A stretch of 64,000 nucleotides of DNA from Solwaraspora sp. WMMA2056 (lineage in GTDB: Bacteria > Actinomycetota > Actinomycetes > Mycobacteriales > Micromonosporaceae): assembly GCF_030345095.1 (NCBI RefSeq), contig NZ_CP128360.1:434001-498000 (forward strand). Reading direction: 5' to 3'. Under the pieces are notes generated by a model, which had not been told where the DNA came from, made no database searches, and saw only the letters and a list, made by a program, of their open reading frames with translations. This document shows, in pieces, positions 32,178-64,000 of the stretch. The position numbers and the translations under genes were made by a program. Numbering within the stretch: the first letter of the stretch is position 1; the number at the start of each line of letters is the position of its first letter.

Positions 32178-32250
32178 GCGCCCGTAGCTCAACGGATAGA
32201 GCATCTGACTACGGATCAGAAGGTTAGGGGTTCGAGTCCCTTCGGGCGCG
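32178..32250 (+). tRNA. tRNA-Arg (ACG anticodon)
   Basis: The acceptor arms GCGCCCG and CGGGCGC pair, discriminator G at 32250. The anticodon loop CTACGGA gives anticodon ACG, and GGTTCGAGTCC is the T arm. 73 nt. It marks the left border of an apparently mobile region, a common integration target, although I could not find a second copy of its 3' end in the window. Confidence 0.95.
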
Positions 32251-32262
32251 CAAGATCAACAG

Positions 32263-32294
32263 GGACCTGACCTGCCGAAACGGCAGCCAGGCCC
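32263..32294 (+). terminator. Hairpin after tRNA-Arg
   Basis: CTGCCG (32272-32277) and CGGCAG (32281-32286) around AAA, extended by outer CCTG and CAGG pairs, form a stem-loop. It is followed by CCTTCGCTTTT, which gives a T-rich end. It starts about twelve bases after the tRNA. Confidence 0.65.
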
Positions 32295-40830: not shown

Positions 40831-41715
40831 TCACGCCGCGATTTGAAGGTTCTCGAACTCTGCGTGGACTTCCCGGGGAGGTCGGTAGCCCACCGCTGAA
40901 TGCAGACGCTGACGATTGTACCAGAATTCGATGTAGGCAGTAACGTCCCGGCGTGCCGCCTCACGAGTGGGATACTTCACACGCGACACGCGTTCGTTCT
41001 TCAGCGCACCGAAGAACGATTCCGCCATCGCATTGTCGAAACAAGTTCCGGTCCGGCCAGCAGATCGCCGCAACCTCAGATCCCGCAGCGTTCTGCCGTA
41101 GTCGTCCGACATGTAGTTGCTGCCCCGGTCCGAATGAAAGATGGCGTTCTTCCTGAGTTCGCGATTCCGGGCGGCGTTACGGATGGCGCGGGATATCAAC
41201 GGCGTCTGGTAGTGGTCGTCCATCGCGTATCCGATGACTTCCTTCGTGCAGCAGTCGATGACGGTCGCCAGATACAGCCACCCCTCGCCGGTCGGGATGT
41301 ACGTGATGTCGCCGACGAGCTTCTCGCCAGGCGCGTCGGCGGTGAACTCCCGGCCGACGAGGTCAGGCACCGTGCCGGACGACGACTGGGTGAGACCCCA
41401 CCGCCTCGGGCGGGGCTGGCACGGCACGAGCCCGAGCTCGCGCATCAGCTGGCGGACGAGTTCCGGCCCGGCGGACACGCCCTGGCGCCGCAGTTGCGCG
41501 TGGACACGTCGATGCCCGTAGGTGCCGTCGGACGCGGCGAACACCTCCTCGATGGCCGATCGAAGGTGGGCGCGGCGGGTGGCGGTCGCGGAGTCGGGGC
41601 GGGTTCGCCATTCGTAGTATCCGGACCTGGACACGCCGAGTTGTTCGCACATGAAGTCGACGGGGTAGGCGTACTTCGCGGTGTCGAGTCGCATCGTCTC
41701 GATGAACTCGTACAA
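40831..41715 (-). CDS. IS3-family transposase OrfB
   Basis: 294 aa with an rve DDE core: LVGDITYIPTGEG (first Asp), FHSDRGSNYMSDDYG (second Asp) and DNAMAESFFGALKNE (Glu). The only start of this frame is TTG, and OrfA ends six bases before it, so expression is likely by -1 frameshift from OrfA. The domain is full length, ending in FENLQIAA. Confidence 0.93.
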   Translation of the reverse strand: MYEFIETMRLDTAKYAYPVDFMCEQLGVSRSGYYEWRTRPDSATATRRAHLRSAIEEVFAASDGTYGHRRVHAQLRRQGVSAGPELVRQLMRELGLVPCQPRPRRWGLTQSSSGTVPDLVGREFTADAPGEKLVGDITYIPTGEGWLYLATVIDCCTKEVIGYAMDDHYQTPLISRAIRNAARNRELRKNAIFHSDRGSNYMSDDYGRTLRDLRLRRSAGRTGTCFDNAMAESFFGALKNERVSRVKYPTREAARRDVTAYIEFWYNRQRLHSAVGYRPPREVHAEFENLQIAA

Positions 41716-41720
41716 GCTCG

Positions 41721-42014
41721 TTACCGAGGGTCCTTCGCGAAGTACGCCGCGGCTTTTTTCAGGAAGCTGTTCTCCATTTCGAGTTCCCGGTTGCGACGTT
41801 CGAGTTCCTTCAGTCGAGCGCGCTCGTCGACGCCGATCGGTGGGCTGTCCTGGGCGCCGCTGTTTTCCCGCCGGTACTGGCGGACCCAGGAACGGAGCGT
41901 CTCCGGGTGAACGTCGATCTCCCGGGCAACCTGCGACACTGGCTTGTTCGACTGTAGAACGAGTTGCACTGCTTCTTCACGGAACTCTGGGGTGTATGAG
42001 CTTATGCGTGCCAT
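41721..42014 (-). CDS. IS3-family transposase OrfA
   Basis: 97 aa. HTH of the transposase_8 type (SSYTPEFREEAVQLVLQSNK and VHPETLRSWVRQYRREN), then a charged coiled coil (RLKELERRNRELEMENSFL) and the ending KKAAAYFAKDPR typical of IS3 OrfA proteins near the frameshift window. Confidence 0.93.
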   Translation of the reverse strand: MARISSYTPEFREEAVQLVLQSNKPVSQVAREIDVHPETLRSWVRQYRRENSGAQDSPPIGVDERARLKELERRNRELEMENSFLKKAAAYFAKDPR

Positions 42015-42298
42015 CGCGCTTCTTCCCTCGACTTTCCTTACAGGGTAACCTTATTGGCTCCCTGTCCGGAATCCTCGGGGCACCTCAACATGTTGGCGAA
42101 CTCTGGTACCTGCATACGCCGGATTCACACGTGCCGGCGCGTCGGCTGCGCACCGCCACGAACTACGGACTGTCAATCGGCGAGGAGCGGGAACTGATCG
42201 CGGCCCGCGACCGCGAGCACGCCAAGAACCGATGGTCCATTAGCGACCACGCTATCGGGACGTACCAGGAGGCGCTGGAACACTTGATCGCTGGTGCC

Positions 42299-43009: not shown

Positions 43010-44194
43010 GTGGGCCGCAGACGGGTTGTCGGGCAGATACGTGTCCAGGAGATCTTCCTCACCGGCAGTCGGCGGTCATGGACGATTCTGTGGCCGGAGG
43101 GTGCGGTCCACGAGGAGGCGGACCGGTTCCTGTGCCGGTACGACGGTGAGCCGGGCACGCAGCGGACGTACGCCTACCTGCTGGTGGATCATCTGCGGTG
43201 GCTCGAGCGGGAGGCGTTACACCTCGCCGCGGTACGGCTACGGGATCTCCAGCGGTACATGGGCATCGTCGGCGCGGAGGTCCGGATTCCGCTAGGGGAA
43301 CCGTGGCGGGTCGGGAAGCGCCCGTACGGCACGGCGACGTTGGGAACTGCGGCGTCGGTGCTGAAGGCGTTCTACCTCGGGCTGAGCAACGAGCACCGCA
43401 GCGCCGAGCTGCGCCGGGATCTGGATCGGGTTCGGTTGCCGTCGAAGGCGGACCGCGACCGGGCGCTGCTGGGGCATGTCAAGTCGACGATGTCGGCCAA
43501 TCCCCTCGCGCCGCGCCACAGCGGCCGGCGGCATCCGAAGATGCTGCCGGACGACGGCCGCGGTCGCCTGCTCAAGAAGGTGAGCACCGCCCGGGACCGC
43601 ATGATCGTCACCTGGTTGTACGACGGCGGGTTCCGCATTGGCGAGATGTGCGGTCTTCACCTGGCGGACCTGCACCTGCGGGAGAACACCGAGTGCGCCC
43701 AGGCGCGCGCCGCGCATGTGCACATCTGTCACCGCGAGGCCAACGCCAACAAGGCCCGGGCGAAGACGAAGCACCCGTGGGAGTTGGTGAACGGTGTCGT
43801 CCACGGTGGGCTGATCCGGCGGGTCAGCCCGGAGATGGTCCACACCTACTTCGCGTACATGACCACGGAGTATCCGCGCGCCGCGGCGACAGGTCACGGC
43901 ATGCTGCTGGTGCAGCTCGCCGGCGAGGAGTACGGGCAGCCGCTGTCGACTGCGGGCGCGCGTAGCATGTTCCGCCGGGCTGGACTGCGGGCCGGGCTCG
44001 GCCGGGTGCATCCGCACCAGGCCCGGCACAACTTCGCCACCGCGGTCCTGGACGCCTCGGGCGGCAACCTCACGATCGCCCGCGACGCCGGCGGGTGGGC
44101 GTCCAGCGCCACGGTGGACGAGATCTACGGGCACACCGACATCCACGCACCGCAGTTCGACGCGGCGCTGCGCAAGGTTTGGGGTGAGCAGTGA
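43010..44194 (+). CDS. Tyrosine recombinase/integrase
   Basis: 394 aa. The N-terminal core-binding region is about 40-150 (RTYAYLLVDHLRWLEREA). The catalytic domain has Arg I in WLYDGGFRIGEMCGLHLADL, the HxxR pair in HPHQARHNFATAV and the C-terminal GHTDIHAP; the Tyr is probably in VDEIYGHT. GTG 43010 is used, with a near-by GTG at 43005 as an alternative. Its stop overlaps a second gene, so it is part of the multi-recombinase operons found on actinomycete mobile elements. It looks intact. Confidence 0.88.
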   Translation: MGRRRVVGQIRVQEIFLTGSRRSWTILWPEGAVHEEADRFLCRYDGEPGTQRTYAYLLVDHLRWLEREALHLAAVRLRDLQRYMGIVGAEVRIPLGEPWRVGKRPYGTATLGTAASVLKAFYLGLSNEHRSAELRRDLDRVRLPSKADRDRALLGHVKSTMSANPLAPRHSGRRHPKMLPDDGRGRLLKKVSTARDRMIVTWLYDGGFRIGEMCGLHLADLHLRENTECAQARAAHVHICHREANANKARAKTKHPWELVNGVVHGGLIRRVSPEMVHTYFAYMTTEYPRAAATGHGMLLVQLAGEEYGQPLSTAGARSMFRRAGLRAGLGRVHPHQARHNFATAVLDASGGNLTIARDAGGWASSATVDEIYGHTDIHAPQFDAALRKVWGEQ

Positions 44195-44369: not shown

Positions 44370-44997
44370 CTCACCTGGCTCACGTCAGCCCGGTTTCCCG
44401 TCCGGGAACGTGCCCGGTATCCAGGTGGTTATCGCTACGGCAACTGCTTGGAGGAGCAGCCGCGTGCCGCGCGTTTCCCAGTGCCTTTCGACGTCCTGGC
44501 ATTCGCTTCTTGAGCCATCCTGTTCCCGCCGCGCACGTCAACGCCCCTTACGGGCACGTCCACCGGATCAACCGGCGCGTGACGGGGTTTCCGTGTTCCA
44601 CACCCTTCAGATACGACCTGGCAGGGCGCCGTCTATCCCCCGAGGGCAGTGGTGTCCTCGCACCGAGACCCTTACCTCTCTCGTGCCACCTGCCGGACCT
44701 TCCCCGGCCGGCCCTTGCCACCCCCGCCACCTGCCAGCAAAGGGGCTAAACGTTAACGAGGGGTCGACGACGGTTCACTTGCGTTCGCCCATCCAGGTCT
44801 TCCCCTTGCCTGCTCGCCGTCGGCAGACTGACCGCGCGCTTTGGCTTCTCCCGCGGGCTTCGCACCCCGTCGTTGCCGACGACGCACGCCACGGTGGGGA
44901 CGGGCCGATGGACACTGACCCGAACTACATGCAGCTCCCGTAAGGGCGCCACCTCCAAACCATGCAGTTACTGAAGCGGTGCGACCTCACGTCGCAC
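44370..44997 (-). mobile_element. Probable group II intron 5' fragment
   Basis: Read on the minus strand, the segment starts at 44997 with GTGCGACGTGAGGTCGCAC. GTGCG is the conserved 5' end of group II introns. Further in it has GTGGAACACGGAAACCCC and AAGAAGCGAATGCC, which recall the domain I sequences ahead of intron-encoded reverse transcriptases. No reverse transcriptase and no domain V hairpin are present, so only the 5' part remains. It cuts an IS1634-like transposase gene on one side and a recombinase partner on the other. The call rests on memory of motif style. Confidence 0.45.
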
Positions 44998-45759: not shown

Positions 45760-46587
45760 TCACCTCTGTCCAATGGCGGTCCTATCGCAGGCTTCATCAC
45801 GGTCACATGTCGTCATGGACACCGACCCCAGGACGCCGAATGAGGCATGCACCTCATGACCTGCCGCCAAATCGACCGCAGCCGACCACGAGCCGGCCAG
45901 CACGAGATCACCGGCACTGATCCCGCTGCCAAAACCCGCCAGGATACGGACCAAGCACGCCACCGACTCGGCAGGATGCCCCATGACCGCAGAACCGTTT
46001 CCCGTGTACTCGGCATTGCCGCTAAGCAACACCATCCGCGCTGCGGCAAGGTCGACCGTATCCGGCGAGACGCCTGCGCCGACAACGACCGCTGCGGAGG
46101 ACGCATTGTCTGCGACCGTGTCTACCAGGCCAATCTGCCATGCCTCGATCCGGCTATCGAGTACTTCCAGGACCGGGCAGACCTCGGTGGCCGCGTCAAG
46201 AACGTCTTGTGCCGTGACGGACTGGCCGCTGAGATCCCTCGCCATCCGGAAGGCGATCTCGCCCTCGACCTTCGGTGCGATGAACCTGCGCACGTCCAGA
46301 GCGACGCCGTCGGGCAGCAGCATGCGATCGGTCAGATAGCCGAAGTCAGGATGATCGATGCCGAACATCTTCTGGATCGCCTCGCTGGTGGCGCCGATCT
46401 TCAGGCCGGCGATCCGGGCCCCACCGGCCAGTTCGAGCGCCCGGGTCTCGCTCTGGATCGCATACGCGTCCGCCAGGTCGAGTCGCGGGTGCCTGACCGA
46501 CAGCGGCGGCACCGGCCGACGGGTTCGGGCGGCCTCCCAGAGCTCCACGGCGAGTTCGCGGTGCAACGTCCGCGCGACGGCCGTCAT
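45760..46587 (-). CDS. cymH: 2-keto-4-pentenoate hydratase-like enzyme, probable CymH
   Basis: 275 aa of the MhpD/hydratase family: HPRLDLADAYAIQSETRALE, IAGLKIGATSEAIQKMFG, FIAPKVEGEIAFRMARDL (metal-binding Glu residues) and NGSAVMGHPAESVACLV. The family adds water to a dienol or runs the reverse dehydration. In the cyclomarin pathway the last enzyme of the set is thought to dehydrate the aldol product to the 4-enoic acid precursor of 2-amino-3,5-dimethylhex-4-enoic acid (ADH). ATG 46587 overlaps the methyltransferase stop by four bases. It is the last gene of the operon. The cym name rests on gene order and content. Confidence 0.82.
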   Translation of the reverse strand: MTAVARTLHRELAVELWEAARTRRPVPPLSVRHPRLDLADAYAIQSETRALELAGGARIAGLKIGATSEAIQKMFGIDHPDFGYLTDRMLLPDGVALDVRRFIAPKVEGEIAFRMARDLSGQSVTAQDVLDAATEVCPVLEVLDSRIEAWQIGLVDTVADNASSAAVVVGAGVSPDTVDLAAARMVLLSGNAEYTGNGSAVMGHPAESVACLVRILAGFGSGISAGDLVLAGSWSAAVDLAAGHEVHASFGVLGSVSMTTCDRDEACDRTAIGQR

Positions 46588-47567
46588 CTGGTCGCCACGA
46601 AGAGCCGACCGCCGGGCAGGCCGATCGGAACGACCTTGGTCTGCGAGAAGCCAGCCGCCGCGAACTTGTCCAGCCACTCCTGCTCGGTGGGGAGGGTGAC
46701 GCTCATGAAGGTGGCGTGCAGGTAGGTGAAGAGGGCGCTGAACTTGCGCTCCTCCGGCCGCCGCGCGTAGGAGACCGCGTCGGCCACGGCGAGGATCCCG
46801 CCTGGGGCCAGCGCGTCGCGCAGGGCTCCCAGGACATCCAGGGCGATACCGTCATCGGCCACGATGTCGTGTATGACATAGCTCGCGAGAACGGCTTCCG
46901 CGCCCGCGACCGGTTCGGGGTTGTCGACCAACGACTCGATTGGCCGCTCGAAGACCGTCAGCCGGTCGTGCACCCCGGCGGCGAGGGCGGCCTGCCGCGC
47001 CGCAGCACAGGCCGCGCCGTTGCTGTCGACCGCCGTGCCGGTACGGGCCGGGTCCTCCTGCAGCAGCTTGATGAGCAGTCCGCCGGCGCCGGCGCCGAGG
47101 TCCGACACCTGCAGCGCCCCGGCTGCCGCCACCTGCTCGATGAGCTGCGGGTAGAAGGCGCGCTGGCCGATCCACCGCGAGCTGACCGCGACCCGCCGCC
47201 CGTTGCGTCGGTGGACATGGGCGGCCGCGGCCGGGTCCGTGAGGAACGCGCGGGCGTTGTCCAGGAAGGGGCCGTTCGCGTTCATCGCCCAGGACACGTA
47301 CCCGGCCTGGTAACGAAGGCCGGGGTAGTCGGCGGCCACCTGGAAGGTGCCCGGAACCTCGGTGTCGACGATTAGGCCGGCGGCGAGCAATGCCCCCAGG
47401 TACGCGGTTATGCCGGCGACCGGGACGTCAACGGCCTTGGCCACGTCCGCGGCGCTGAACGGCTCGCCCGCGTCCAGAACCTGATCGGCTCCGATCTCGG
47501 CGCCGATCAGAAGCAGCGCGGCGACCGCAGCCGCATCGGCCACGGCTTCCGAATCTTTCCGTTCCAT
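46584..47567 (-). CDS. cymG: SAM-dependent methyltransferase, probable CymG
   Basis: 327 aa. An N-terminal winged-helix dimerisation region (residues 10-90, AADVAKAVDVPVAGITAYLG) precedes a class I fold with motif I VSDLGAGAGGLLIKLL and LASYVIHDIVADDG, the O-methyltransferase family layout. In the cyclomarin cluster a methyltransferase at this place is assigned to C-methylation of the keto-acid intermediate of ADH. ATG 47567 has GAGGGTGAG upstream and lies 19 bases after the aldolase stop. It sits between aldolase and hydratase genes, which supports a role between the two steps. Confidence 0.82.
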   Translation of the reverse strand: MERKDSEAVADAAAVAALLLIGAEIGADQVLDAGEPFSAADVAKAVDVPVAGITAYLGALLAAGLIVDTEVPGTFQVAADYPGLRYQAGYVSWAMNANGPFLDNARAFLTDPAAAAHVHRRNGRRVAVSSRWIGQRAFYPQLIEQVAAAGALQVSDLGAGAGGLLIKLLQEDPARTGTAVDSNGAACAAARQAALAAGVHDRLTVFERPIESLVDNPEPVAGAEAVLASYVIHDIVADDGIALDVLGALRDALAPGGILAVADAVSYARRPEERKFSALFTYLHATFMSVTLPTEQEWLDKFAAAGFSQTKVVPIGLPGGRLFVATR

Positions 47568-47585
47568 GATTCTCACCCTCACCCG

Positions 47586-48631
47586 TCAGATGTGGTCAGC
47601 AAAGGCGTGCGTCAGGTCCGCGGACGCCCGCTCGGCGGCCAGGGCCATAGCGACCTCGATGATGGTGTCCTCCTGGCCGGCCACCACCCGCCGCCTGCCC
47701 AATTCGAGCAGGATCTCGCGGGGATCGACGCCGAAGCGCCGGCTGGCGCGCCGCACCGGAGCCGCGAACCCGGAGAACACCCCGGCGATGCCGCTGGCGA
47801 TGGTGACGCTGTCGTTGGTCGGCACGTGTTTCACGAACCGTTCCTCGGCGGTGTCCGCCGCGTCCAGCGCGCCGAAAAGCTTGATCCGCGCCTCGATCTG
47901 CTCGACGTGCAGGTTGGCGGCGACCAGTTCGATCGGTGCGTTCCCCGCCCCGGCGCCGAATCCACGCGCCGTCACGTCCACGATGGATGCACCCGCGCGG
48001 ATTGCGGTGATGCTGTTGATCACCGAGAGGCCCAGGTTGTTGTGGGCGTGGAAACCGATCGCGATGTCGAGCTTCTCGACCAGCTCGCCGACCTTCTCCC
48101 GGACCATCTCCGGGGTGTACGCGCCGGCGGAGTCCATCAGCACGACCGCCTCGGCGCCGTAGTCTTGCATGAGCCCCGCCTGCTCGGCCAGCTTCCCGGC
48201 CGACGCCATGTGGCTCATCAGCAGCAGGCCCTTCACGCGTACGCCCATCGACCGCAGCATCGTGACCTGCTGACAGGTGACGTCGGCCTCGGTGCAGTGC
48301 GCGCCCACCCGGACCTCGTCAACGCCGCAGTCGAGGGCGGGCTTGAGGTCACGTTCGACGCTGGCGAAGCCGGGGATGGAGAGCACACCCAGCCGCGAGT
48401 TGCGCAGCTCGGCCTTCGCGGCGCGCAGCATCTCCACGTCGCTGATGGCGGCGATGCCGACCTGAATGGACGAGGCGCCGAGCCCGTTGCCGTGCCCGAC
48501 CTCCAGGACGTCCACCCCGGCTGCCTCGGCCGCCCGAGCGTAGGCGCCGATGTCCGCCCGGCCGAGCTGGTGGGCGACGGCGTGGTTGCCGTCGCGCAGC
48601 GTCGAGTCACAGATCTGCAGTTTCACGCCCA

Positions 48632-48632
<1 letters not shown>
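47586..48632 (-). CDS. cymF: 4-hydroxy-2-oxovalerate aldolase-like enzyme, probable CymF
   Basis: 348 aa of the DmpG/MhpE family: QICDSTLRDGNHAVAHQLG (metal-binding Asp), DVLEVGHGNGLGASS, SHMASAGKLAEQ, VLMDSAGAYTP and IGFHAHNNLGLSVINS with two metal-binding His. In catabolism it splits 4-hydroxy-2-oxovalerate. Here the likely use is the reverse, joining pyruvate with isobutyraldehyde for ADH. The start overlaps the stop of the dehydrogenase (ATGA); these two proteins form a channelling complex in the family. A TTG one codon earlier is not preferred. Confidence 0.88.
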
Positions 48633-50652
<2,020 letters not shown>

Positions 50653-50682
50653 TCAGAATCCACGTCGAGGCGCGGGGGTGGC

Positions 50683-51273
50683 TCAGCGCCACGCGTCCAG
50701 ATGAAGGTCTGCGACACGTCCCGTCTCGGCGACGCGTCCGAACACGGCCGGGAACCACACCGAGAACTCCAGCCGATCCCGCATGTCACGCAGTTGGCCG
50801 GGTGCGACCAGCGTCCACTCCGCGACCTCCGCGGGATCGGGTCGCGGCTCGTCCCAGAATCGGCCCACGAACACGTGGTTGTACTCGCGCTCGATCAGGC
50901 CCGACTTCGGGTCCGGCAACTCGTACAGCACGGTCCCGGCGGCCGCGAGACCGACCGGCGTCGTGCCCAGCTCCTCCCGGACCCGACGGGCGGCCGCAGC
51001 GTCCGGCGCCTCCCCGGGGAAGGGGTGGCCGCAGCAGGTGTTGGACCACACACCCGGCGAGTGGTACTTGCCCAGCGCCCGCCGCTGTAGTAGCAGGCGC
51101 CCCTCGTCGTCGAAGAGGAACACGGAGAACGCCCGGTGCAGATGGCCGGGACTCGTGTGGGCGGTCAGCTTGTCGAGCACCCCGACGGTCTGTCCTGTGG
51201 TGTCCACTAGCTCGAGCAGGTCCCGCCCGGGTTCCGGGGCGTCCGTCCCGCTCACGTCGTTGGTTGCGAGCAA
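50683..51273 (-). CDS. idi: Type I isopentenyl-diphosphate isomerase
   Basis: 196 aa, Nudix-fold type I Idi. Landmarks are HLHRAFSVFLFDDEGRLLLQ (metal ligands), the catalytic Cys in VWSNTCCGHPFPGEAP, and RRVREELG with REYNHVFVGRF (catalytic Glu region). It converts IPP to DMAPP, the prenyl donor of the adjacent transferase. The start is TTG 51273, three bases after the MbtH stop, so it is coupled. In cym order it would be cymC. It is a pathway-dedicated copy, inferred from position. Confidence 0.93.
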   Translation of the reverse strand: MLATNDVSGTDAPEPGRDLLELVDTTGQTVGVLDKLTAHTSPGHLHRAFSVFLFDDEGRLLLQRRALGKYHSPGVWSNTCCGHPFPGEAPDAAAARRVREELGTTPVGLAAAGTVLYELPDPKSGLIEREYNHVFVGRFWDEPRPDPAEVAEWTLVAPGQLRDMRDRLEFSVWFPAVFGRVAETGRVADLHLDAWR

Positions 51274-51276
51274 GGC

Positions 51277-51492
51277 TCAGGACTCCTCAGCCATGGCGCG
51301 AACAAGGCTCCGCGGGCGCATGTCGGTCCAGTTCTGCTCGACGTAGTCGAGGCACGCCTGATGGCTGTCCTCGGGGTGGGCGACGGTCCACCCTGCCGGC
51401 ACGTCGATCGCCGCTGGCCACATCGAGTACTGACCCTCGTCGTTGACCAGCACCAGGAACCGGCCCTCGGTGTCGTCGAATGGGTTACCCAT
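51277..51492 (-). CDS. MbtH-like NRPS chaperone
   Basis: 71 aa with the full MbtH signature: [35 protein letters not shown] and [11 protein letters not shown]. MbtH proteins bind adenylation domains and are needed for their solubility and activity. Its ATG overlaps the NRPS stop (ATGA), so it is made together with the synthetase. In cym order it would be cymB. Confidence 0.95.
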
Positions 51493-54400
51493 CAGTTCTC
51501 CTCCTTGGTCGTGGCGTTGCCGGCGATGACGGCCCGCAGGTGCTGCTCGAGAATCGGGCCGATCACCTGGAGCGCCTCCGGCGCCATGATCGTGCTGTGA
51601 CTGGTCGCAATCGGGTGGTAGGTGATCTCGCCGACGAACTCCCGCCAAACCTCGGGGTCGAGCACCCGCTCCCGTTCCTGGGCCGCGCCGAAGATCAGCA
51701 TGTCGGCCTCGACCCGTTCCGTGCGGTGCCTGGTAGCGATCGAGATGTTGCGGTGCAAAATCGCCATGAGTAGCTGGAACTCCTCCTCGGCGACGTTGCC
51801 CAGGACCGTGTTGGTGGTCCGGGCCAGTTCGGAGAACTGTGCGAAGGTGAGGTTGCCGTTCGGCAAAGCTGCCGGGTCGACGCCCAGCACCTCCAGGATG
51901 CCGGTGTAGACCTTGCCGGTAGCCTCGATGACCTGCGCCTGCTCCTCCTCGCTCAGCGGCCGGGCAGGCTCAGAGTCAAGCGCCACGATCAACCCGACCT
52001 GCTCCCCGGCGGCCTCCAGCCGGGCGGCCATGGCCTGCGCCACGACCCCGCCGAACGACTGCCCGAGCAGGTAGTACGGGCCGGTCTTCTGCACCTGACG
52101 CATCTCCTCGATGCAGTCGTCGGCCACCTGGATCAAGCTCTCCGGGAGCTCGTCGGGGTGGCTGAGCGCGCGGGACTGCAGCCCGTACACCGGGAAGTCG
52201 GGGCTCAGGTGCAACAGCAGATCCGAGTACGCCCAGCAGATCGCTGCCCCCGGGTGGACGCAGAACAGCGGTGGCAGGGTGCCCCCGGTGCGCAACGGCA
52301 GCAGCACGTCGAACGCCCGGCCGGCACCGTCGGAGCCGAGCTGCTCGGCGAGCTGCGCGACGGTAGGACCGGCGAAGAACGTCCGGATCGGGATCTCCGT
52401 GCCCATCACCTCGGCGATCCGGGCGATTAGCTTGTTCGCCAGCAGCGAATGGCCGCCCAGGTCGAAGAAGTTGTCCTCGACGCCGATCTGGCCCAGGCCC
52501 AGCACCTCGGCGAACAGGCCGCAGAGGATTTCCTCCTGCGGCGTACGCGGCCCGCGGCCTACCAGCGCCGTGACGTGCGGGGCCGGCAGCGCTTCCCGGT
52601 CCACCTTGCCGTTCGGCGTGAGCGGGAAGTCCGTCATCGCCGTCACCACCGCCGGCACCAGATGCTCGGGCAGCGACCGGCGCAGGTCCTCGCGGATACC
52701 GCTGACGTCGGCGCCAGGCTGGGCCGGGATGACGTACCCGAACAGGGCCAGGTCGCCCTGACGGTCGGCCCGTACGGCCACCGCGGTCCGCGTCACCGCC
52801 GGATGCTCGGCCAGCGCGGCCTCCACCTCGCCCAGCTCGACCCGCATCCCGCGAATCTTCACCTGTTCGTCGGTACGGCCGGCGTACTCCAGCTCGAATG
52901 CGTAGTTGAGCCGGCCGAGGTCGCCGGTACGGTACATCCGTGAGCCAGGCGGGCCGTACGGGTCGGCGACGAACCGCTCGGCGGTCAGGCCGGACCGGTG
53001 CAGGTATCCGCGCCCGACGGCGGGTCCCGCCACATACAGCTCACCCTCGGCGCCGGGCGGCACGATACGCAGATCGGCGTCGAGGACGTACACCCGCATG
53101 CCCGCGTTGGGTCGGCCGACCGTGACGCGCTCACCGTCCAGCGGGCCGGTCATCGTGCAGGCGATGGTCGTCTCGGTCTGGCCGTACACGTTGACCATGC
53201 GTCGGCCCGGCGACCAGCGCGCGGCGAGATCGGGTGTCAGCACCTCGCCGCCGAGCAGCAGGCCGCGCAGGTCGGCGAGCCGGCCCGCCGCGTCGACCGG
53301 CATGCTGGCCAGCACCGACGGCAGGGTCACCAGGTGCGTAATCCGCTTCTCGGCCAGCACCCGGGCCAGCGCGTCACCCACGATCAGTCCCGGCTCCGGC
53401 AGGACGAGCGTTCCCTGCGTGGCGAACGCCACGATGAAGTCCATGATCGAGGCGTCGAAGCTCGGCGAGGAGAGCTGCAGGACACGGCTGCCCGGCTCCA
53501 CACCCCAGCGCTGCCGCCAGGACTCCGCCGCATCGGCCAGCCCGGCGTGGGTGATCACCGCCCCCTTGGGCCGGCCGGTCGACCCGGAGGTGTAGATGAC
53601 GTAGGCCGGGTGGTCGAGGCCGAGGGCAGTCGTGCGGTCGCGATCGGTCGGGTCGTTGTCCGGCCAGCTCTCCCACTGCGCCACGGTCGCCGGGTCGTCG
53701 ACGTCGATCACCGGCTGGTTCACGCCGAAGCGGGCCACCCCGGCGGCGTCCGTCACGACCAGCTTCGGCCGGGCATCCGCGCAGAGATACGCCACCCGGT
53801 CGGCCGGGTAGGTCGGGTCGATCGGCAGGTACGCCGCCCCGCTCTTGGCGATGGCCAGAATCGTGACGACCTGCCGGATGCTGCGCGGCAGCAGCACGGC
53901 GACGAGATCCTCCGGGCCGGCCCCACGGTCGATCAGCGCCCGCGCCATCCGGTTGGCCCGGCTGTTCAGCTCGGCGTACGTGGTGTCGGCCGCGCCGTCG
54001 GTCACGGCGATCGCGGACGGCGCAGCGGCAGCCCAGGCTTCGAAGAGCTGCGGCAGAGTTCCCGGCACCGGCGCGGCGATGTTGTCCAATTCGAGTCCTC
54101 CGATGGGTTGGTCGGGCGAGTCGACGACCTCGTGCAGCAGCTGGCCGAACTCGTCGAGGAAGGCGTCGACCGTCGCACTGTCGTAGAGGTCGGTGGCGTA
54201 CTCGACGACGAGGATCAGCCCGGCGGGCGCGCCGTGGTCGTCGAACGTCTCGATCGCGTTGACGGACAGGTCCACCCGCGACACCCCGGTCTCGACCCCG
54301 TCCAGCTGCGGCCGTGCGGTCAGCCCGGCCAGCTCGAACTCGGCGTCCGGCGTGTTCTGCAGCACCAGCTGGACCTGGAAGAGCGGGTGCTGCCCGGGCG

Positions 54401-57400
54401 ACCGGTCGGGGTTGAGCTTCTCCACCAAGTGGTCGAAGGGCATGTCCTGATGGGCGTACGCGGCCAGGCTGGTGTCCCGCACCTGCTCCAGCAGCCGGGT
54501 GAAGCTGGGGCGGCCGGAGGTGTCGATCCGCAGCACGAGCGTGTTGATGAAGAAGCCGACCAGGTCCTCGATGGCGTCGTCGGCGCGTCCCGCGGTCGGC
54601 GCGCCGACCGGGATGTCTGTGCCGGCACCGCTGCGACTCAGCTGCGCGCCGAGCGCCGCCTGCAACGCCATGAACAGGGTGGATCCGTGGCGCCGGGCCA
54701 GCACGCGCAGAGCCCGGTGCAGCTCCGCGTCGAGGTTGCGGGTCAGCGTGGCACCCCGGTGGCTGGCCTCGGCCGGGCGGGGCCGATCGGCCGGCAACGT
54801 CACCAGTCGCGGCAGACCGGCCAGCTGGTCGCGCCAGTAGGCGAGCTGGCGGCTGAGCCGGCTGTCCGGGTCAGCCTCGTCGCCCAGCATTCGGCGCTGC
54901 CAGAGGGCGAAGTCGGCGTACTGGACCCGCAGCGGCGCCCAGTCCGGGGCGTGACCGGCCGCGCGTTGCTCGTACGCCGTGGTCAGGTCCCGGGCCAGCG
55001 GCCGCATCGACCAGCCGTCCACCGCGACGTGGTGCACGACCAGCAGCAGCACCCATTCGTCGCCTCCGGTGGTAAACAGCGACGCCCGCACCGGGATCTC
55101 CCGGGACAGGTCGAACTCGTGCCGGGAGGCGTCGCGGAGCACCTGGGTCAAGTCGCCCTCGGCCACCGCACGTACTGGCAGGTCGATCTCGACGGCGTCC
55201 AGGATCCGCTGGTGAGGCTCCCCGCGCCGTTCGCCGAAGACGGTGCGCAGCACCTCGTGCCGGGCCAGCACGTCGCCGAGGGCGGCGCGCATCGCGGCCA
55301 CGTCGAGCGCGCCGGACAAGCGCACCGCCAGCGGCGAGTTGTACGTCGCCGACGGCCCCTCCAGCTTCTGCATGAACCAGAGGCGCTGCTGCGCGAACGA
55401 CAACGGGAGGACCTCCGGCCGTGGCGCCTGCTCCAGCGCGGGCCCCGCACGGCCCGACCCCTGTGCCAGCACCGCGGCGAGCTGGGCGGGCGTCGACGCG
55501 GCGAACACCTGCTGCAGCGGCACCTCGATGCTGAGCACGGCACGGATCCGGCTGGTCAACCTGGTGGCGAGCAGCGAGTGCCCGCCGAGGTCGAAGAAGC
55601 TCTCGTCGACCCCGACGCGGGGCAGTCCGAGCAGGTCGGCGTACAGCTCGCAGAGGATTTCCTCGTACGGGTCGCGCGGCCCGCGCTCCTCGGCCGTGGT
55701 GGTGACGATCTCGGGTTCCGGCAGCGCCCGGCGGTCGATCTTGCCGTTCGGGGTGAGCGGGATCCGCTCGATCGGCGTGATCGTGGCCGGCACCATGTGG
55801 TCGGGCAGCAACGACTTGATCGTGCCGCGCAGCTCGGAGACGTGCTCACCGGCGGTGCGGGCGACCGCGGGCACGTTGGCGACCACCTCCGGAGTGCCCG
55901 GTCGGCAGACGTCCGTGAGCGGCTCGTCCTCGCCGGCGGCGAGGAGCACCACGTCGTACATGTCCCAGTTCCGCGGCGACCAAGTGGGCACCGCCCGCCA
56001 GCCGCGCTCCGCGGCCCGCCGGCGTACCTGCTCCGGGTGCAGCCGGGGTTCGGTGGTGCCGGCCAGTCGCGGGTTCGGTATCCGGGTCAGGCGTACCGGC
56101 GCCTTCACGTCGGCCAGGTCCGTGACGTCACGGCCCCAGACCAGCTCCGGCAGGTCCCCGACCGGCCGGGTCGCGCCGGTGTGCAGCACCACCTCGTACC
56201 TGTAAGCGGTCAGCTCGTTGTCCGCGCTGCCCCGCTTGAGCAGCACCTCGACGCCGGTTGCCCGCGGATGCCGGAAGGCGGTGAAGAATTCGGGCGCGAG
56301 CAGCAGTTCCTTCTCGATCGCCACGGCGTGGTCCACTGCCGACGAGCCGGATCCGGGGTTGCGGAACTCGTGTACAGCGGCGTGCATCGCCCGCAGCAGG
56401 CCGTGGTGGCGCACGTCGCCGACGATCAGCCGGCCACCGTCGGCCAGCAGGTCGAGCGCTTTGCCCAGCACGTCGCGCAGGTAATCCGCGCTCGGGAAGT
56501 ACTGGACCACCGAGTTCAGCACGATGGTGTCGAAGTGGCCGCGGGGCAGCCTCGACACGTCGTGGGCCGGTTGGCATCGCAGGTGCGCATGCTCCCAGCC
56601 GCGTTCCCGGGCGTACTCCCGTAGCCGCTCGACGGCGGCCGCCGAGAAGTCCGTCGCCCAGTACTCCTCGGTCCGCTCGATCAGCGGGACCATCAGGAGG
56701 CCGGAGCCCGCACCGATCTCCAGGACCCGGCGAGGGCCGAACCGGGCCACCTGCTCCACCGCGGACCGCTGCCACTCCCGCATCTGCTCGATCGGGATCG
56801 GCGCGCCGGTGAACGAACTGTTCCAACCCGCGAAGTCGGCGCCCGGCTCGCGCGCCAGTCCGCTGTAAACCTCGTGGTAGATGCTGCGCCACTCGTCCAG
56901 CTGATCGTCGAAGTCGGTTGCCGGACCCTGGTCGGCCAGTACGACGTACGCGGCGAGCGAGACGGCGCCGGAGCGGTCCGGCCGCGGCACCACGACGGCC
57001 CGCGCCACTGACGGTTGCGCGGCGAGGACGCGTTCCACCTCGCCGGGCTCCACCCGGAAGCCGCGGATCTTCACCTGCTCGTCGGAGCGGCCGAGGTACT
57101 CCAGGTCCCCGTCGGCGTTCCAGCGGACCATGTCGCCGGTGCGGTACATCCGCGTGCCGGCGGGCCCGTAGGGATCGGCCAGGAACCGGGTCGCGGTCAG
57201 ACCGGCACGGCCCCGATAACCCCGGGCCAGGCCTTCGCCGACGATGTACAGCTCGCCCGGGACCCCGGGAGCGGCCAGCCCGAGCCTTTCGTCCAGCACG
57301 TACAGCCGGGTGCCGAGCGCCGGCTTGCCGATCGACACCGGGGGTTCGTGCAGGTCACCGGTCTGGCTGGCGACGACGGTCGCCTCGGTCGGCCCGTACG

Positions 57401-60400
57401 CGTTCACCATCCGCCGGCCGGGCGCCCACCTCCGCAGCAGCTCGGGCGGGCATGCCTCGGCACCGACGATGAGGGTACGGAAGTCGGTCAGGGTCTGCGG
57501 CGCGTCGGCCGGTAGGGTGCTCAGCACCGACGGAGGGATCAGCGCGTGGGTGATCCGGTGGTGGGCGAGGGCCCGCGCCAGCTCGTCGCCGGCCAGCCGG
57601 TCCGCCGAGGCGATCACCAGGGCGGCGCCGGAATCCCAGGCCCAGACCAGCTCCAGCACAGCGGCATCGAAACTCGGCGACGAAGCCTGCAGGATCCGGC
57701 TGTCCACGTCGGCCGCGCAGCGCTGGCGCAGGGTGGCGGCGAGGCCGCTGAGCCCGCGGTGGGTCACCACGACACCCTTGGGCTGCCCCGTCGAACCCGA
57801 CGTATAGATCACATACGCGGCAGCGTCCACCGGCAACGGACACACCGGGTCATGCTCCGGCTGCCCGTCGAAGACATCCCCCTCACCGATCACCAACGCC
57901 GGAGCAGCATCCCGCAACAAATACTCCACCCGAGCCCGCGGATAACCCGGATCCACCGGCAGATACGCCGCACCCGCCTTCACGACCCCCAACACCGTCG
58001 CGACCTGCACCGCGCCGCGCGGCAGCACCACAGCCACCACATCCTCGACACCCACACCGCGCTCGATCAACGACCAGGCAACCCGATTCGCGTACGCATT
58101 CAGCTGCGCATACGACCAGCTCAGCTCCCCCTCGACAACCGCCACCGCATCCGGCGTGGCCGCCACCCGACGCTCGAACAACTCCGCCAGCGTCACCGCC
58201 GCCACCGGACCCGACGCCGCCCCCCACCGCTGCAACAACCGATCCCGCTCATCGACCCCCAGCAGCTGCACCCCACTCAACCGCGACCCCGGCGCCACCA
58301 CCATCGCCCGCAACACCCGCACCCACCGAGCCGCGAACGCCTCGATCGTCGCCCGGTCATACAGATCAGTGGAGAACTCGACGACGCCGGTGACACCCGC
58401 GGGGCGCCCGTCGGCCGTGGTGGTCTCGGTCAGACTGAGCGACAGGTCGAACCGGGATGTGCCGGTGCCACGGCCCTCCTGCCACACCCGCACGCCGGAG
58501 AGGTCGAAGTTGGCCTCGGCGTTGTTTTGCAGCACCACGGCGATCTGGAACAGCGACTGATGCGACGCCGACCGCAGCGGATTGATCTTCTCGACCAGGT
58601 ACTCGAACGGGATGTCCTGGTGCGCGTACGCGGCGAGGCTGCTGGCGCGTACCCGCTGAAGGAGCTCGACGAACGTCGGATCGTCGGACGTGTCGGTGCG
58701 CAGCACCACCATGTTGACGAAGAAGCCGACGAGGTCGTCGAGGCGTTCGTCGGTGCGACCGGCCACGCCGGCGCCGACTACCACGTCGGTGCCGGCACCG
58801 GAGCGGGTCAGCAGCGCCGACAGCGCGGTCTGCAGCACCATGAACAGCGTCGAACCGGTCCGCCGGGCCAGCGCCATCAGCCCCGCGTGCAGCTCCGCGT
58901 CCACCTGGAAGGTGCTTACGTCGCCCCGGTAGCTGGCCATCCTCGGCCGCGGGCGGTCGGTCGGCAGGGTCACCTGCTCGGGCAGGTCGGCAAGCCGGTC
59001 CCGCCAGAACGCGAGCTGGCGACCGAACGTGCTGTCCGGATCCGCGTCGTCGCCGAGCAACTCCCGGTGCCACAGTGTGTAGTCGGCGTACTGCACCGGC
59101 AGCGGTGCCCAGTCCGGGGCCCGGCCGGCCGCGCGCGCCGCATACGCCGTCGCCAGGTCCCGCGCCAGCGGCCGCAGCGACCACCCGTCGGCGACGATGT
59201 GGTGCAGTACCAGCATCAACACCCACTCGCCCGGACCGGCCGCGTACAGCGACACCCGTAGCGGGATTTCCCCGGCCAGGTCGAACCGGTGGCGCGCGGC
59301 GGCCTGCAGCGCTTCGTCCGAGGCGGCGTCGTGCACCGGCAATTCGATCTCGACCGGGTCCAGGATCCGCTGGTACGCCTGGCCGTCGTGCTCGGCGAAG
59401 ACGGTGCGCAAGGCCTCGTGCCGGCCCACCACGTCGGTCAGCGCGGCCTGGAGCGCCGGTACGTCGAGCGGCCCCGACAGCCGCAGCGTGAGCGGCATGT
59501 TGTAGGTCGGCGACGGTCCTTCCAGCTTGTGCAGGAACCACAGGCGCTGCTGGGCGAACGACAGCGGCAGGAGCTCCGGTCGCGGCACCGGCTCCAGTGC
59601 CGTCCGGGCCGGGGCATTCGCCGCCAGGATCGCCCGGGCCAGCGCGGACGGCGTGGACGCCTCGAACAGGGTCAGCAGCCGCACCTCGAAGCCGAGCTTT
59701 GCCCGGATCCCGCTGATCAGGCGGGTACCCAGCAGCGAGTGTCCGCCCAGGTCGAAGAAGTCGTCCTCGGCGCCGACCTGCTCCAGGCCGAGGACCTCGG
59801 CGAAGAGTCCGCACAGGATCTCTTCCTCGGGGGTACGTGGGTCGCGTCCCCGCGAGGTCTCGAACTCCGGATCCGGCAGCGCGTCTCGGTCGAGCTTGCC
59901 GTTCGGCGTCAGCGGGATCTCCGGCAGCACGACGATCGCGACCGGCACCAGGTGATCGGGCAGGATCCGGCGCAGATCCTCGCGGACGGCCGCGGGGTCG
60001 GCGCCGGGCCGCTCGGGCACCATGTAACCAACCAGCGCGGGGTCACCTTGCCGATCGTCGCGGAACGCGACGACCGCGCGAGCCACATCCGGATGCGCCG
60101 TCAGCGCGGCCTGCACCTCGCCCGGCTCGACGCGGATACCCCGGATCTGGACCTGGTGGTCGGAACGGCCCAGGTATTCGAGTTCCCCGTCGGCGTTCCA
60201 CCGGACCACGTCACCGGTGCGGTACATCCGCGCACCGGCCGGGCTGAAAGGATCGGCCACGAACCGCGACGCCGTCAGGCCGGCCCGGCGCAGGTAGCCC
60301 CGGGTCAGGCCGACGCCGCCGATGTACAGTTCGCCCCGCGACCCGGGCGGCGCCAGATGCAGGTTCGAGTCCAGCACGTACACCCGCCATCCGGGCAGCG

Positions 60401-63400
60401 GGGCGCCGATCGGATGCGCCTCCCCGGACAACGGGCGGCTGACCGTCGTCGCCACCGTGGTCTCCGTCGGGCCGTAGAGGTTCGTCATCCTCCGGCCCGC
60501 CGACCAGCGGCGCGCCAGGTCGGGCGAACACGCCTCGCCGCCGACCACAAGGCCCTGGAACGCCGGCAGCTGTCCGGTGGTCGCACTGGGCAAGGTCGCC
60601 AGCACTGACGGCGGCACGAACGCGTGCGTGACCCGCGCCTCCGCGATCAGCGTGGCCAACTCCTCGCCGGCCAGTCGCGACTCGCGGGAGACGACCAGGG
60701 CCGCACCGGCGCCGATGGCCATCATCAGTTCGAGGACCGAGGCGTCGAAGCTCGGCGACGCCATCAGCAGCACCCGGCTGTTGTCGGCGACGGCGTTGCG
60801 GCCGACCGTTCCGGAGGCGAGCGCGGCGAGGCCGCGGTGGGTCACCACGACACCCTTGGGCTGCCCCGTCGAACCCGACGTATAGATCACATACGCGGCA
60901 GCGTCCACCGGCAACGGACACACCGGGTCATGCTCCGGCTGCCCGTCGAAGACATCCCCCTCACCGATCACCAACGCCGGAGCAGCATCCCGCAACAAAT
61001 ACTCCACCCGAGCCCGCGGATAACCCGGATCCACCGGCAGATACGCCGCACCCGCCTTCACGACCCCCAACACCGTCGCGACCTGCACCGCGCCGCGCGG
61101 CAGCACCACAGCCACCACATCCTCGACACCCACACCGCGCTCGATCAACGACCAGGCAACCCGATTCGCGTACGCATTCAGCTGCGCATACGACCAGCTC
61201 AGCTCCCCCTCGACAACCGCCACCGCATCCGGCGTGGCCGCCACCCGACGCTCGAACAACTCAGACAGGGTGGTCGGCTCCACCTCCGGCTCGGCGTACG
61301 CCCAGCCGGTCAGCCGCTCCCGCTCGCCGTCGAGTAGCAGGTCCACCGACCCGATGCGCTGCTCCGGATCGTGCGCGACGGCGGCCAGGAATCGCAGCCA
61401 GCGGCCGACGAAAGCTTCGACCGTCGCGGCGTCGTACAGGTCGGTGGCGTACTCGACGGCCCCGATCACACCGCCGGCATCCGGCTGCTCTGCGAGGCTG
61501 ATGAACAGGTCCACACGGGACAGCCCGGTGCTGACCCCCTCCAGCCTTGTTCGCAGGCCGGGCAGGTGGAAACCGGTGTCCGGGTTGTTCTGAAACGCCA
61601 GCAGCACCTGGAACAACGGATTATGCGCGGTACTGCGATGCGGATTGAGCTTCTCCACCAAAAACTCGAACGGCACATCCTGATGCGCATACGCCTCCAA
61701 CGACGTATCCCGCACCCGCTCCAACAACTCACCAAAACCCGGATTCCCGGACGTGTCAGCCCGCAACACCAACGTGTTCACGAAAAACCCAACCAGATCG
61801 TCCAACGCATCATCGCTACGACCAGCAATCGGACTACCGATCGGCACATCCTCACCCGCACCCAGCCGCGTCAGCACCGCCGCCAACGCCGCCTGCAACA
61901 CCATGAACAACGTCGCCCCCGACGCCCGGGCAAGCCGCAACAGATCCGCGTGCAACCCCGCATCCAACCGGAACATCCACACGTCACCGGCATACGACGC
62001 CGCCTGCGGCCGAGGCCGATCAGCCGGCAACGTCACCTGCTCCGGCAAACCCGCCAACCGCCCACGCCAATACGCCAACTGACGCCCGAACACACTGCCC
62101 GGATCAGCCTCCTCACCAAGCAACCGCCGCTGCCACAACGTGTAATCCGCGTACTGCACCGGCAACGGCGACCACGACGGACCACGACCCACCCGACGAT
62201 CCGCATACGCCGTCGCCAAATCCCGCGCCAACGGCCCCAACGACGCACCATCAGCCGCGATGTGATGCAACACCAGCATCAACACCCACTCACCCGGACC
62301 AGCCACGAACAACCACGCCCGCACCGGAATCTCCCGAGCCAAGTCGAACTCGTACCGAGCCGCCTGCCGCAACGCACCCGGCAACTCACCCGCAGACACC
62401 TCACGCACCGGCAACCCGACATCCACCGCGTCCAACACCCGCTGACACGGCACACCATCCACCTCCGCGAACACCGTCCGCAGAGCCTCATGCCGGCCCA
62501 CCACATCACCCAACGCAGCCCGCAACGCGCCCACATCCAACGAGCCCGAAAGCCGCAACGCCAACGGCGAGTTATACGTCGCCGACAACCCCTCCAACTT
62601 GTGCAAGAACCACAAACGCTGCTGAGCAAACGACAACGGCAACACCTCCGGCCGCACCACCGGCTCCAGCGCCCGCTGCACCCGACCCTGCTCCTCGCCC
62701 AACACCACCGCCAACTCGGCCGGCGACGGCGCGGCGAACAGCGCGCGCGGCGGCAGCTCGCAGCGGAACGCCTTGCGGATCCGAATGATCAGCCGGGTGG
62801 CCAACAGCGAATGCCCGCCCAGATCGAAGAAGCTGTCGTCCGGGTCCACCTGCGGCACGTCGAGCACTTGCGCGAACAGGACGCATAGCAGCTCCTCCTG
62901 CGGCGTACGCGGTGCGCGCCCCCGGCCGCCGGCCTGCTCGGGGTCCGGCAGCGCCCGCTGGTCGACCTTCCCGTGCGAGGTGCGGGGAATCTCGTCGAGG
63001 AGGACGACCGCCGATGGAACCATGTGCTCCGGCAGCTCGTCCTGCAGGTACGCGCGCAGCACTCCGTCGCGGACCGCCCGCCCGGAGGCCGGAACGGCGT
63101 ACGCGAGAAGCTGGTCCAGCCGGACGATGACGGCGGCCTGGGCAACCGCAGGATGGCGCAGCAGCACGGACGCCACCTCGCCGGGCTCCACCCGGAAGCC
63201 GCGGATCTTCACCTGCTCGTCGGAGCGGCCGAGGTACTCCAGGTCCCCGTCGGCGTTCCAGCGGACCATGTCGCCGGTGCGGTACATCCGCGTGCCGGCG
63301 GGCCCGTAGGGATCGGCCAGGAACCGGGTCGCGGTTAGACCGGCACGGCCCCGATAACCCCGGGCCAGGCCCTCGCCGACGATGTACAGCTCGCCCGGGA

Positions 63401-64000
63401 CCCCGGACGCCACCGGTTGAAGCGCGTCATCCAGCACGTAGAGCCGGGTGTTCAGCACCGGACGGCCGATCGGCGCCGGGCCGGGTGAAAGCTCCGCGCT
63501 GATCGATGCGCAGACGGTCGACTCGGTCGGGCCGTACGCGTTGAACATCCGGCGTCCGGGCGACCACCGCGCGGTCAGTTCGGGCGGGCACGCCTCCCCG
63601 GCGACCACCAGGGTGCCGAGGTCGGGCAGCCGGTCGGCCGGCACCGTCGCCAGCACGGTCGGCGGCAGCGTGAGGTGGGTGATGCGCTGCTCGTGCAGGA
63701 CGGCCGCCAGGTCCTCCCCGGCCAGCCGGTCGGCCTCGGGCACCACCAGAACGGCGCCGGCGCCGAGGGCCATCACCAGCTCCCACACCGTGGCGTCGAA
63801 GCCGAGCGCGGCGAACTGCAGCACCCGCGAGCCCTCGCCCGCCCCGAGTCGCTGCTGCGTCGCGGCCATGCTCGCGAGCCCGCGGTGGGTCACCACGACA
63901 CCCTTGGGCTGCCCCGTCGAACCCGACGTATAGATCACATACGCGGCAGCGTCCACCGGCAACGGACACACCGGGTCATGCTCCGGCTGCCCGTCGAAGA
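51492..64000 (-). CDS. cymA: Nonribosomal peptide synthetase, last four modules (probable CymA), cut by the window edge
   Basis: At least 4159 residues are visible and the 5' part lies beyond the right edge. Domain order from the edge, with rough bases: A1 (64000-62920), T1 (62900-62700), C2 (62660-61290), A2 (61270-59880), T2, C3 (59580-58200), A3 (58190-55740) with an inserted methyltransferase (about 56900-56000, [14 protein letters not shown]), T3, C4 (55430-54080), A4 (54080-52590), T4, TE (52290-51530, GQSFGG). T sites read LGGHSLL; C motifs are HHIAADG, HHIVADG and HHVAVDG. My by-eye A1 pocket is DAWTVAAVC, a Phe code. A2 reads DALFVGLVA, A3 DALLIGAVV and A4 DAMVLGVIA, without firm assignment. 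No epimerase is seen. The layout fits a Phe-Val-N-MeLeu-ADH terminus of cyclomarin. Confidence 0.93.
57035..57268. repeat. 234-bp NRPS repeat, A-domain C-terminal part of module 3
   Basis: It is nearly identical to 63173-63406 (offset 6138) with only a few mismatches. It encodes the A7-A8 region from [16 protein letters not shown] to [12 protein letters not shown]. The partner lies in module 1, not in module 2, so exchange affected different pairs at the two ends of the A domain. Confidence 0.85.
57754..58184. repeat. 431-bp intragenic NRPS repeat, copy in module 3
   Basis: The sequence is, by eye, identical to 60832-61262 (offset 3078). It covers the start of the A domain, from the SGSTGQPKG motif back to the C-A linker ([13 protein letters not shown]). 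A third copy starts at 63880 and runs off the window. Confidence 0.88.
60832..61262. repeat. 431-bp intragenic NRPS repeat, copy in module 2
   Basis: This copy matches 57754-58184 over its whole length and is flanked by diverged sequence on both sides. Identity at this level between paralogous modules points to recent gene conversion or duplication. Confidence 0.88.
63173..63406. repeat. 234-bp NRPS repeat, A-domain C-terminal part of module 1
   Basis: Partner of 57035-57268, with differences such as GGTTAGACC against GGTCAGACC. Beyond the ends the two A domains diverge. Confidence 0.85.
63880..64000. repeat. Third copy of the NRPS repeat, cut by the window edge
   Basis: The 121 bases to the window end match the left ends of the copies at 57754 and 60832, so the repeat occurs at least three times in this synthetase gene. 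Confidence 0.85.

Follow-up and report, generated by a model that had tools for sequence, protein, structure and literature searches.

The DNA considered here is a stretch of 64,000 nucleotides (bases 434001-498000, hereafter the window) of the single-contig, 7.01 Mb genome of Solwaraspora sp. WMMA2056, together with the biosynthetic gene cluster that enters it from the right; positions beyond the window are given in an extended numbering that continues rightward on the same contig. Eight genes of cyclomarin (cym) type occupy the right part of the window on the minus strand. They encode, in order, a nonribosomal peptide synthetase (NRPS), an MbtH-like protein, an isopentenyl-diphosphate (IPP) isomerase, a DMATS prenyltransferase, an acylating aldehyde dehydrogenase, an aldolase, a methyltransferase and a hydratase (Table 1). 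Profile matches and reading frames confirm all eight, in the order and on the strand given in the original prediction. The overlaps that it described between successive genes exist at four of the seven joints (1-4 bp, at NRPS/MbtH, prenyltransferase/aldehyde dehydrogenase, aldehyde dehydrogenase/aldolase and methyltransferase/hydratase), whereas the other three joints are gaps of 3-45 bp. The hydratase reaches 230 bits on TIGR03220, under the model cut-off of 408.8, and a Pfam scan of this protein at 0.001 gave no match. The hydratase end had been called the left edge of the cluster, correctly so, because DNA homology to related clusters stops at 45794-45817 in all six of them (blastn, at least 75% identity, pieces longer than 400 bp). 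The whole cluster spans about 44 kb, from 45760 to about 90142.

The prenyltransferase is identical to crystallised CymD (6os3) at 353 of 372 positions (94.9%), and CymD (6os3, 6os5, 6os6) is its best solved relative, at 814.6 bits against 99.7 for the next. The NRPS is a single open frame on the minus strand (51492-74870, 7792 amino acids) with seven A3 motifs of adenylation (A) domains, seven peptidyl carrier protein (PCP) motifs, six condensation (C) motifs, a C-terminal thioesterase (TE), and N-methyltransferase (N-MT) domains in two modules, placed in modules 2 and 6 by the A-to-PCP distances. The part of this protein that the window encodes starts at about residue 3624, inside A4; the additional modules that had been expected to the right are indeed found there, as three complete modules, C4 and the start of A4, the first being an adenylation-thiolation module. 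Specificity codes, taken from an alignment anchored on module 4, are DVWTHGGVA for module 1 (the same in all seven clusters compared), DALHSGAVA for module 2, DVFFVGLVA for module 3, DAWTVAAVC for module 4, DALFVGLVA for module 5, DALLIGAVV for module 6 and DAMVLGVIA for module 7. The module 4 code shows two conservative changes from the Phe code of GrsA, which we take to be DAWTIAAIC. The cassette for the residue ADH is complete, its aldehyde dehydrogenase, aldolase, methyltransferase and hydratase genes all being open frames, and the matches of the methyltransferase to 8ftr (267 bits) and, weakly, to MppJ (4kib, 40 bits) and to a 2-ketoarginine methyltransferase model (30 bits) are in keeping with a predicted C-methylation of a 2-oxo acid. 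The cyclomarin-type interpretation is thus supported by the prenyltransferase and by the seven-module NRPS, and we conclude, with a probability of about 0.97, that the locus is a complete cyclomarin/cyclomarazine gene cluster, a further member of the known family. Two points weigh on the other side. Direct comparison with the characterised cluster, that of Salinispora arenicola CNS-205, covers CymD alone, the Solwaraspora cluster being known from its genes, and the choice between Ala and Val for residue 3 is not settled by the code, as modules 3 and 5 share the final six of their nine letters.

Family identity and domain order were computed, and the enzymatic steps of the following scheme come from publications about the known cluster or are inferred. 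Dimethylallyl diphosphate would be supplied by the IPP isomerase, and Trp would be N-prenylated (p-Trp) by the CymD orthologue. The aldehyde dehydrogenase-aldolase pair would join an aldehyde derived from a coenzyme A thioester to pyruvate, giving a hydroxy-oxo acid that the hydratase would dehydrate and the methyltransferase C-methylate before transamination to ADH. The NRPS would then assemble p-Trp, N-methyl-(hydroxy)Leu, Ala, Phe, Val, N-methyl-Leu and ADH, in that order, with macrocyclisation by the TE. Beta-methoxy-Phe would be made by P450c and the FkbM methyltransferase, and P450a would be the CymV-type epoxidase. For the two remaining oxidations we infer that a GriE-like dioxygenase provides free 5-hydroxyleucine for module 2 and that P450b, of CymS type, performs Trp beta-hydroxylation.

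Table 1. Features of the locus (ext., extended numbering)
Feature	Position	Strand	Remarks
tRNA-Arg(ACG), left border of the putative island	32178..32251	+	
att-like core	32207-32264		repeated at 92764 (ext.)
Tyrosine recombinase inside putative island, beside cluster	43010..44194	+	PF00589, 3e-18
2-oxo-enoate hydratase/dehydratase, cymH-type, DmpE family	45760..46587	-	TIGR03220, E 3e-68
S-adenosylmethionine methyltransferase, cymG-type	46584..47567	-	alternative GTG start at 47582
4-hydroxy-2-oxovalerate aldolase, cymF-type, DmpG communication domain	47586..48632	-	TIGR03217, 350.6 bits, cut-off 286
Acylating acetaldehyde dehydrogenase, cymE-type, DmpF family	48632..49519	-	TIGR03215, 331.8 bits, cut-off 282.25
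DMATS prenyltransferase, CymD-type (predicted tryptophan N-reverse-prenylation)	49516..50637	-	PF11991, 1.7e-13
IPP isomerase, cymC-type	50683..51273	-	NF002995, 196.9 bits, cut-off 127
MbtH-like protein, cymB-type	51277..51492	-	PF03621, 1.2e-27; ATG at 51492 overlaps NRPS stop
Heptamodular NRPS, 3' part, cymA-type	51492..64000	-	gene start 74870 (ext.); in window: most of A4 (Phe code), modules 5, 6 (with N-MT) and 7, TE
PhyH-type dioxygenase	74899-75747 (ext.)		only dioxygenase among scanned cluster proteins
P450a	75772-76980 (ext.)		
LuxR-type regulator			upstream of NRPS
P450b	79938-81290 (ext.)	+	
163-amino-acid protein	81287-81778 (ext.)		no Pfam match
Type II TE, then FkbM methyltransferase			upstream of NRPS
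P450c	83295-84515 (ext.)		
BTAD regulator		+	
ABC exporter pair			upstream of NRPS
Histidine phosphatase	89540-90142 (ext.)		
Two tyrosine recombinases past right border	95848-96825, 97747-98970 (ext.)		

The tailoring set upstream of the NRPS, found by homology, comprises three P450s, an FkbM methyltransferase and a PhyH-type dioxygenase. The nearest solved relative of P450c is 8vxi, followed by 4l0e and 3mgx. We take these two to be P450sky and OxyD, which beta-hydroxylate residues bound to a carrier protein. P450a and P450b are 51.2% and 41.4% identical to two P450s of a rufomycin-type cluster in another genome (G767). Since these values parallel the identities given in PMC8577248 for RufS/CymV (51%) and RufM/CymS (44%), we regard P450a as CymV-type and P450b as CymS-type.

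In section 3.2 of PMC8401383, 'a dioxygenase' is credited with the beta-hydroxylation of Trp and a P450 with the delta-hydroxylation of Leu; the dioxygenase of this review is taken here as the PhyH gene, the sole dioxygenase among the scanned cluster proteins. CymS is described as a putative hydroxylase of leucine, either free or bound to a carrier (PMC8577248), and these oxidations are presented as thought to act on carrier-bound residues (PMC8068612). Our proposal reverses both of these oxidase assignments: the delta-hydroxyl of residue 2 would probably be put on free Leu by the dioxygenase, acting as a GriE-type 2-oxoglutarate enzyme, module 2 would pick (2S,4R)-5-hydroxyleucine by means of a His/Ser-lined pocket, and the CymS-type P450 would beta-hydroxylate Trp, thereby deciding between cyclomarin and cyclomarazine, a dipeptide. 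In the titles and abstracts searched, none connected GriE with cyclomarin, the checked co-occurrences of 'grie' being an author name.

The proposal starts from the dioxygenase, which is identical to GriE (5nch) at 153 of 262 positions (58.4%), free of gaps. GriE is reported to be the free L-leucine 5-hydroxylase of griselimycin biosynthesis, which turns over L-Leu and not D-Leu, L-Val or L-Ile, and which forms (2S,4R)-5-hydroxyleucine (PMC5676206). The other tested member of the family that we found, MypE of the mycoplanecin pathway, likewise takes free aliphatic amino acids, L-Leu and L-allo-Ile (PMC10817943). The GriE residues His110, Asp112 and His210 (the Fe(II) triad) and Arg242, which contacts the Leu carboxylate, are kept in all seven cym orthologues, and the lid residue Val170 is Ile in the Solwaraspora enzyme. 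In a tree of 29 sequences, the seven cym dioxygenases fall together with GriE and with three enzymes from Streptomyces at a support of 94/91, slightly below the mark of 95/80, with no firm order inside the group; a zinc-dehydrogenase motif, expected for a GriF neighbour, lies no more than 300 bases from the dioxygenase gene in two of the three tree neighbours and in 5 of the 20 loci examined. Homologues were found in one of 396 genomes of a phylum sample, the host itself, at 1e-60, and in 39 of 392 genomes of a Streptomyces sample at 1e-40, so that members of the family also occur outside cyclomarin clusters. Genome G767 holds one dioxygenase match, at 33% identity.

The second line of evidence is the pocket of module 2. 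The A domains of modules 2 and 6 are 70% identical, and both modules carry an N-MT domain and take Leu. At positions 278 and 299, module 2 has His and Ser in all six readable clusters, where module 6 has Leu and Ile/Val, also in six of six. The G767 NRPS, in which the A-domain motif was found in six of the seven A domains (the first was missed), has three Leu-type modules among those found, which share the hydrophobic code DALFAGAVA, and rufomycin leucine is described as oxidised post-assembly (PMC8577248); these modules are a weak control because they are 91-96% identical to one another. Stereochemistry points the same way. The hydroxyleucine of cyclomarin has been built from (S)-Roche ester, and its methyl configuration is stated to be opposite to that of ilamycin (PMC8401383), in which the corresponding carbon is S (PMC5577134). 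By our deduction from the Cahn-Ingold-Prelog rules, (S)-Roche ester leads to 4R, and the C4 configuration of the cyclomarin residue would then match the GriE product and be opposite to that of ilamycin. Finally, cyclomarazine is described as already bearing the oxidised leucine (PMC8577248), which suggests an early hydroxylation step.

Several observations weigh against this reassignment. The iron triad and Arg242 are also present in each of the 21 further homologues, including two whose identity to GriE is only 37%, and since they are kept in every homologue seen, these residues permit the Leu reading but do not discriminate. The best solved relative of P450b is P450 sb21 (6m4s), which hydroxylates the N-methyl-leucine of cyclosporin. 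P450b is also 41% identical to a rufomycin-type P450, and RufM, for which the identity to CymS is the published 44%, oxidises a leucine (PMC8577248). Inactivation of the beta-hydroxylation gene, which is not named in the account we cite, is said to give cyclomarazine (PMC8401383), a compound that carries an oxidised leucine. The analogous rufomyazine is reported to be a breakdown product of the linear peptide (PMC11934086), which weakens the early-step argument drawn from cyclomarazine. It is possible, if less probable, that the published division of labour stated in the two papers holds, with the dioxygenase beta-hydroxylating p-Trp on the NRPS and the CymS-type P450b hydroxylating Leu. This division accords less well with a dioxygenase so close to GriE, in a family whose other tested member takes free aliphatic amino acids, with the polar pocket of module 2, or with a stereochemistry that agrees with GriE and not with the ilamycin/rufomycin P450. 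If the dioxygenase is a leucine hydroxylase, as we favour, delta-hydroxyleucine becomes a building block that could be fed or replaced, and the enzyme gating cyclomarin versus cyclomarazine would be a P450.

Cyclomarins are reported to kill Mycobacterium tuberculosis via ClpC1 and to inhibit a Plasmodium hydrolase (PMC8401383), and a further intact cluster, lying on an island that looks mobile in a genome assembled as one contig, can serve as a source. Beyond family assignment, the analysis contributes new proposed roles for two oxidases, which can be tested, and evidence for an inserted element. A scan for Clp_N domains, aimed at ClpC-type self-resistance, found six places in the genome and none in the cluster, the nearest ending about 120 kb to the left of the window; a self-resistance gene of this type inside the cluster was rejected accordingly. 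Among the other upstream proteins, the 163-amino-acid protein is kept at 71-86% in all six related clusters. For the histidine phosphatase the values are 58-86% in five of these clusters, and 57% for a match close to the rufomycin-type cluster in G767.

The left flank contains a tRNA-Arg(ACG) gene, whose last 45 bases, from the anticodon arm onward, are repeated without mismatch (45/45) at 92764 on the far side of the cluster. The repeat has an exact core of 58 bp and continues to 274 bp at 90.5%; the genome has no other strong copy, and a third match reaches 74% over 80 bases. The segment between the copies, about 60.5 kb, contains both the cluster and a tyrosine recombinase, and the putative island covers 32178-93037. 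The cluster looks as if it had been inserted, on an island organised as tRNA-targeted integrative elements usually are. This border is known for the Solwaraspora genome only, because no tRNA was found beside the relatives' clusters in any of the 18 loci scanned. Just inside the tRNA border, on the minus strand (32687-35239), lies a gene for a protein of 850 amino acids with a TIR domain and an NTPase, resembling defence-type STAND proteins. An IS3-type element of 1301 bp (40787-42087) has an identical copy to the right of the cluster. The genome as a whole holds at least nine that are full length and 100% identical (40 of 178 candidates scored), and a composite transposon formed by the flanking copies was rejected, since the element is multi-copy genome-wide. 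An Rfam match to group II intron D1D4-7 (44836-44922, minus strand; 40.8 bits, gathering score 34) is doubtful because it is short (87 bases for a 151-position model), its neighbour is a tyrosine recombinase and no reverse transcriptase matched among the ten left-flank frames scanned; it may be a remnant or a chance match.

The gene set is present in six named actinomycetes, Pseudosporangium ferrugineum, Streptomyces speibonae, Streptomyces humidus, Streptomyces abikoensis, Streptomyces sp. CHD11 and GESEQ-4, the clusters of P. ferrugineum, S. speibonae and CHD11 being split over two contigs. The prenyltransferase matches 43 of 354 genomes of the host's family at 1e-20, but at 95% or more only in the host and P. 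ferrugineum, the others listed being at 26-36%; among 392 genomes sampled from the genus to which GESEQ-4 belongs, five match at 1e-60 (two at 83-84%, three at 41-45%). CB02959, with a prenyltransferase at 41%, was dropped as a relative, the 47 kb fetched being without a heptamodular NRPS. Leaving the NRPS aside and counting matches within the fetched stretches, 16 of 19 cluster proteins are matched in all six relatives. Of the other three, the histidine phosphatase is matched in five and the IPP isomerase in three, in one case with a coverage of only 21%, while P. ferrugineum alone has a full-length match to the BTAD regulator. The order of genes B to H is the same as in P. ferrugineum and GESEQ-4, where the isomerase adjoins the prenyltransferase, and in the other four relatives as well save for cymC, which is a 21% fragment in one and has no match in the stretches fetched from S. 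humidus, S. abikoensis and CHD11. Host and P. ferrugineum belong to the same family. Their cluster DNA is 91.6% identical in one piece of 14177 bp and 90.2% in another of 10275 bp. At the rpoB locus the values are 88.3% (3612 bp), 93.6% (405 bp) and 87.2% (180 bp), a single yardstick by which horizontal transfer is suggested at most.

The exporter and histidine phosphatase genes lie past the hydratase end in S. humidus, S. abikoensis, GESEQ-4 and S. speibonae and at the opposite end in Solwaraspora, a rearrangement between lineages. Within the Solwaraspora NRPS gene, an exact direct repeat of 1187 bp (nucleotides 5923-7109 and 12133-13319) lies in the C-domain sequences of modules 3 and 5, and a second such repeat, of 635 bp, spans the A-domain beginnings of modules 4 and 6; these repeats are recent gene conversion within one megasynthase. 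The cyclomarin-type NRPS of S. humidus has 5811 amino acids and five A domains, two modules being gone with the junction inside the module 3/5 similarity, which reflects either a natural two-module deletion, with a shortened peptide, or an assembly collapse.

Among known systems, the metamarin (met) clusters from soil DNA resemble the Solwaraspora cluster in core and tailoring logic, with methyltransferases in modules 2 and 6, p-Trp, beta-methoxy-Phe and delta-hydroxy-Leu (PMC8068612). An identity as a metamarin or M10709 cluster, in which Val replaces ADH at position 7, is nevertheless very improbable, and metamarin was rejected on gene content: the four ADH-cassette genes are open frames here, whereas the metamarin cluster is described as having no ADH genes (PMC8401383) and no close relative of the epoxidase (PMC8068612), both of which the Solwaraspora cluster has. 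A rufomycin/ilamycin identity is more remote still and was likewise rejected on gene content, for the shared heptamodular NRPS, exporter, CymD-like p-Trp prenyltransferase (44% identical to that of G767 against 95% to CymD) and RufS/CymV-type P450 (51%) are offset by the absence, among the proteins scanned in 45760-90142, of any polyketide synthase, where a trimodular one for AHA is expected, and of a nitration gene (the three P450s reach 105-116 bits on the model for the nitrating P450 TxtE, cut-off 500), by N-MT domains in modules 2 and 6 instead of 2 and 5 (PMC11934086; G767), by different module codes, and by a dioxygenase, an FkbM methyltransferase and an ADH cassette unmatched in the 80 kb of G767 searched. 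The GriE system differs in another respect: no alcohol dehydrogenase is present among the scanned Solwaraspora cluster proteins, and hydroxyleucine would therefore be used directly and not converted to methylproline. The closest counterpart is the cym cluster of Salinispora arenicola CNS-205, which is alike in its CymD, its heptamodular NRPS, its ADH genes, its P450s and dioxygenase and, according to the published descriptions, its type of epoxidase; what sets the Solwaraspora cluster apart from it is its flanks, those of a putative tRNA-Arg island.

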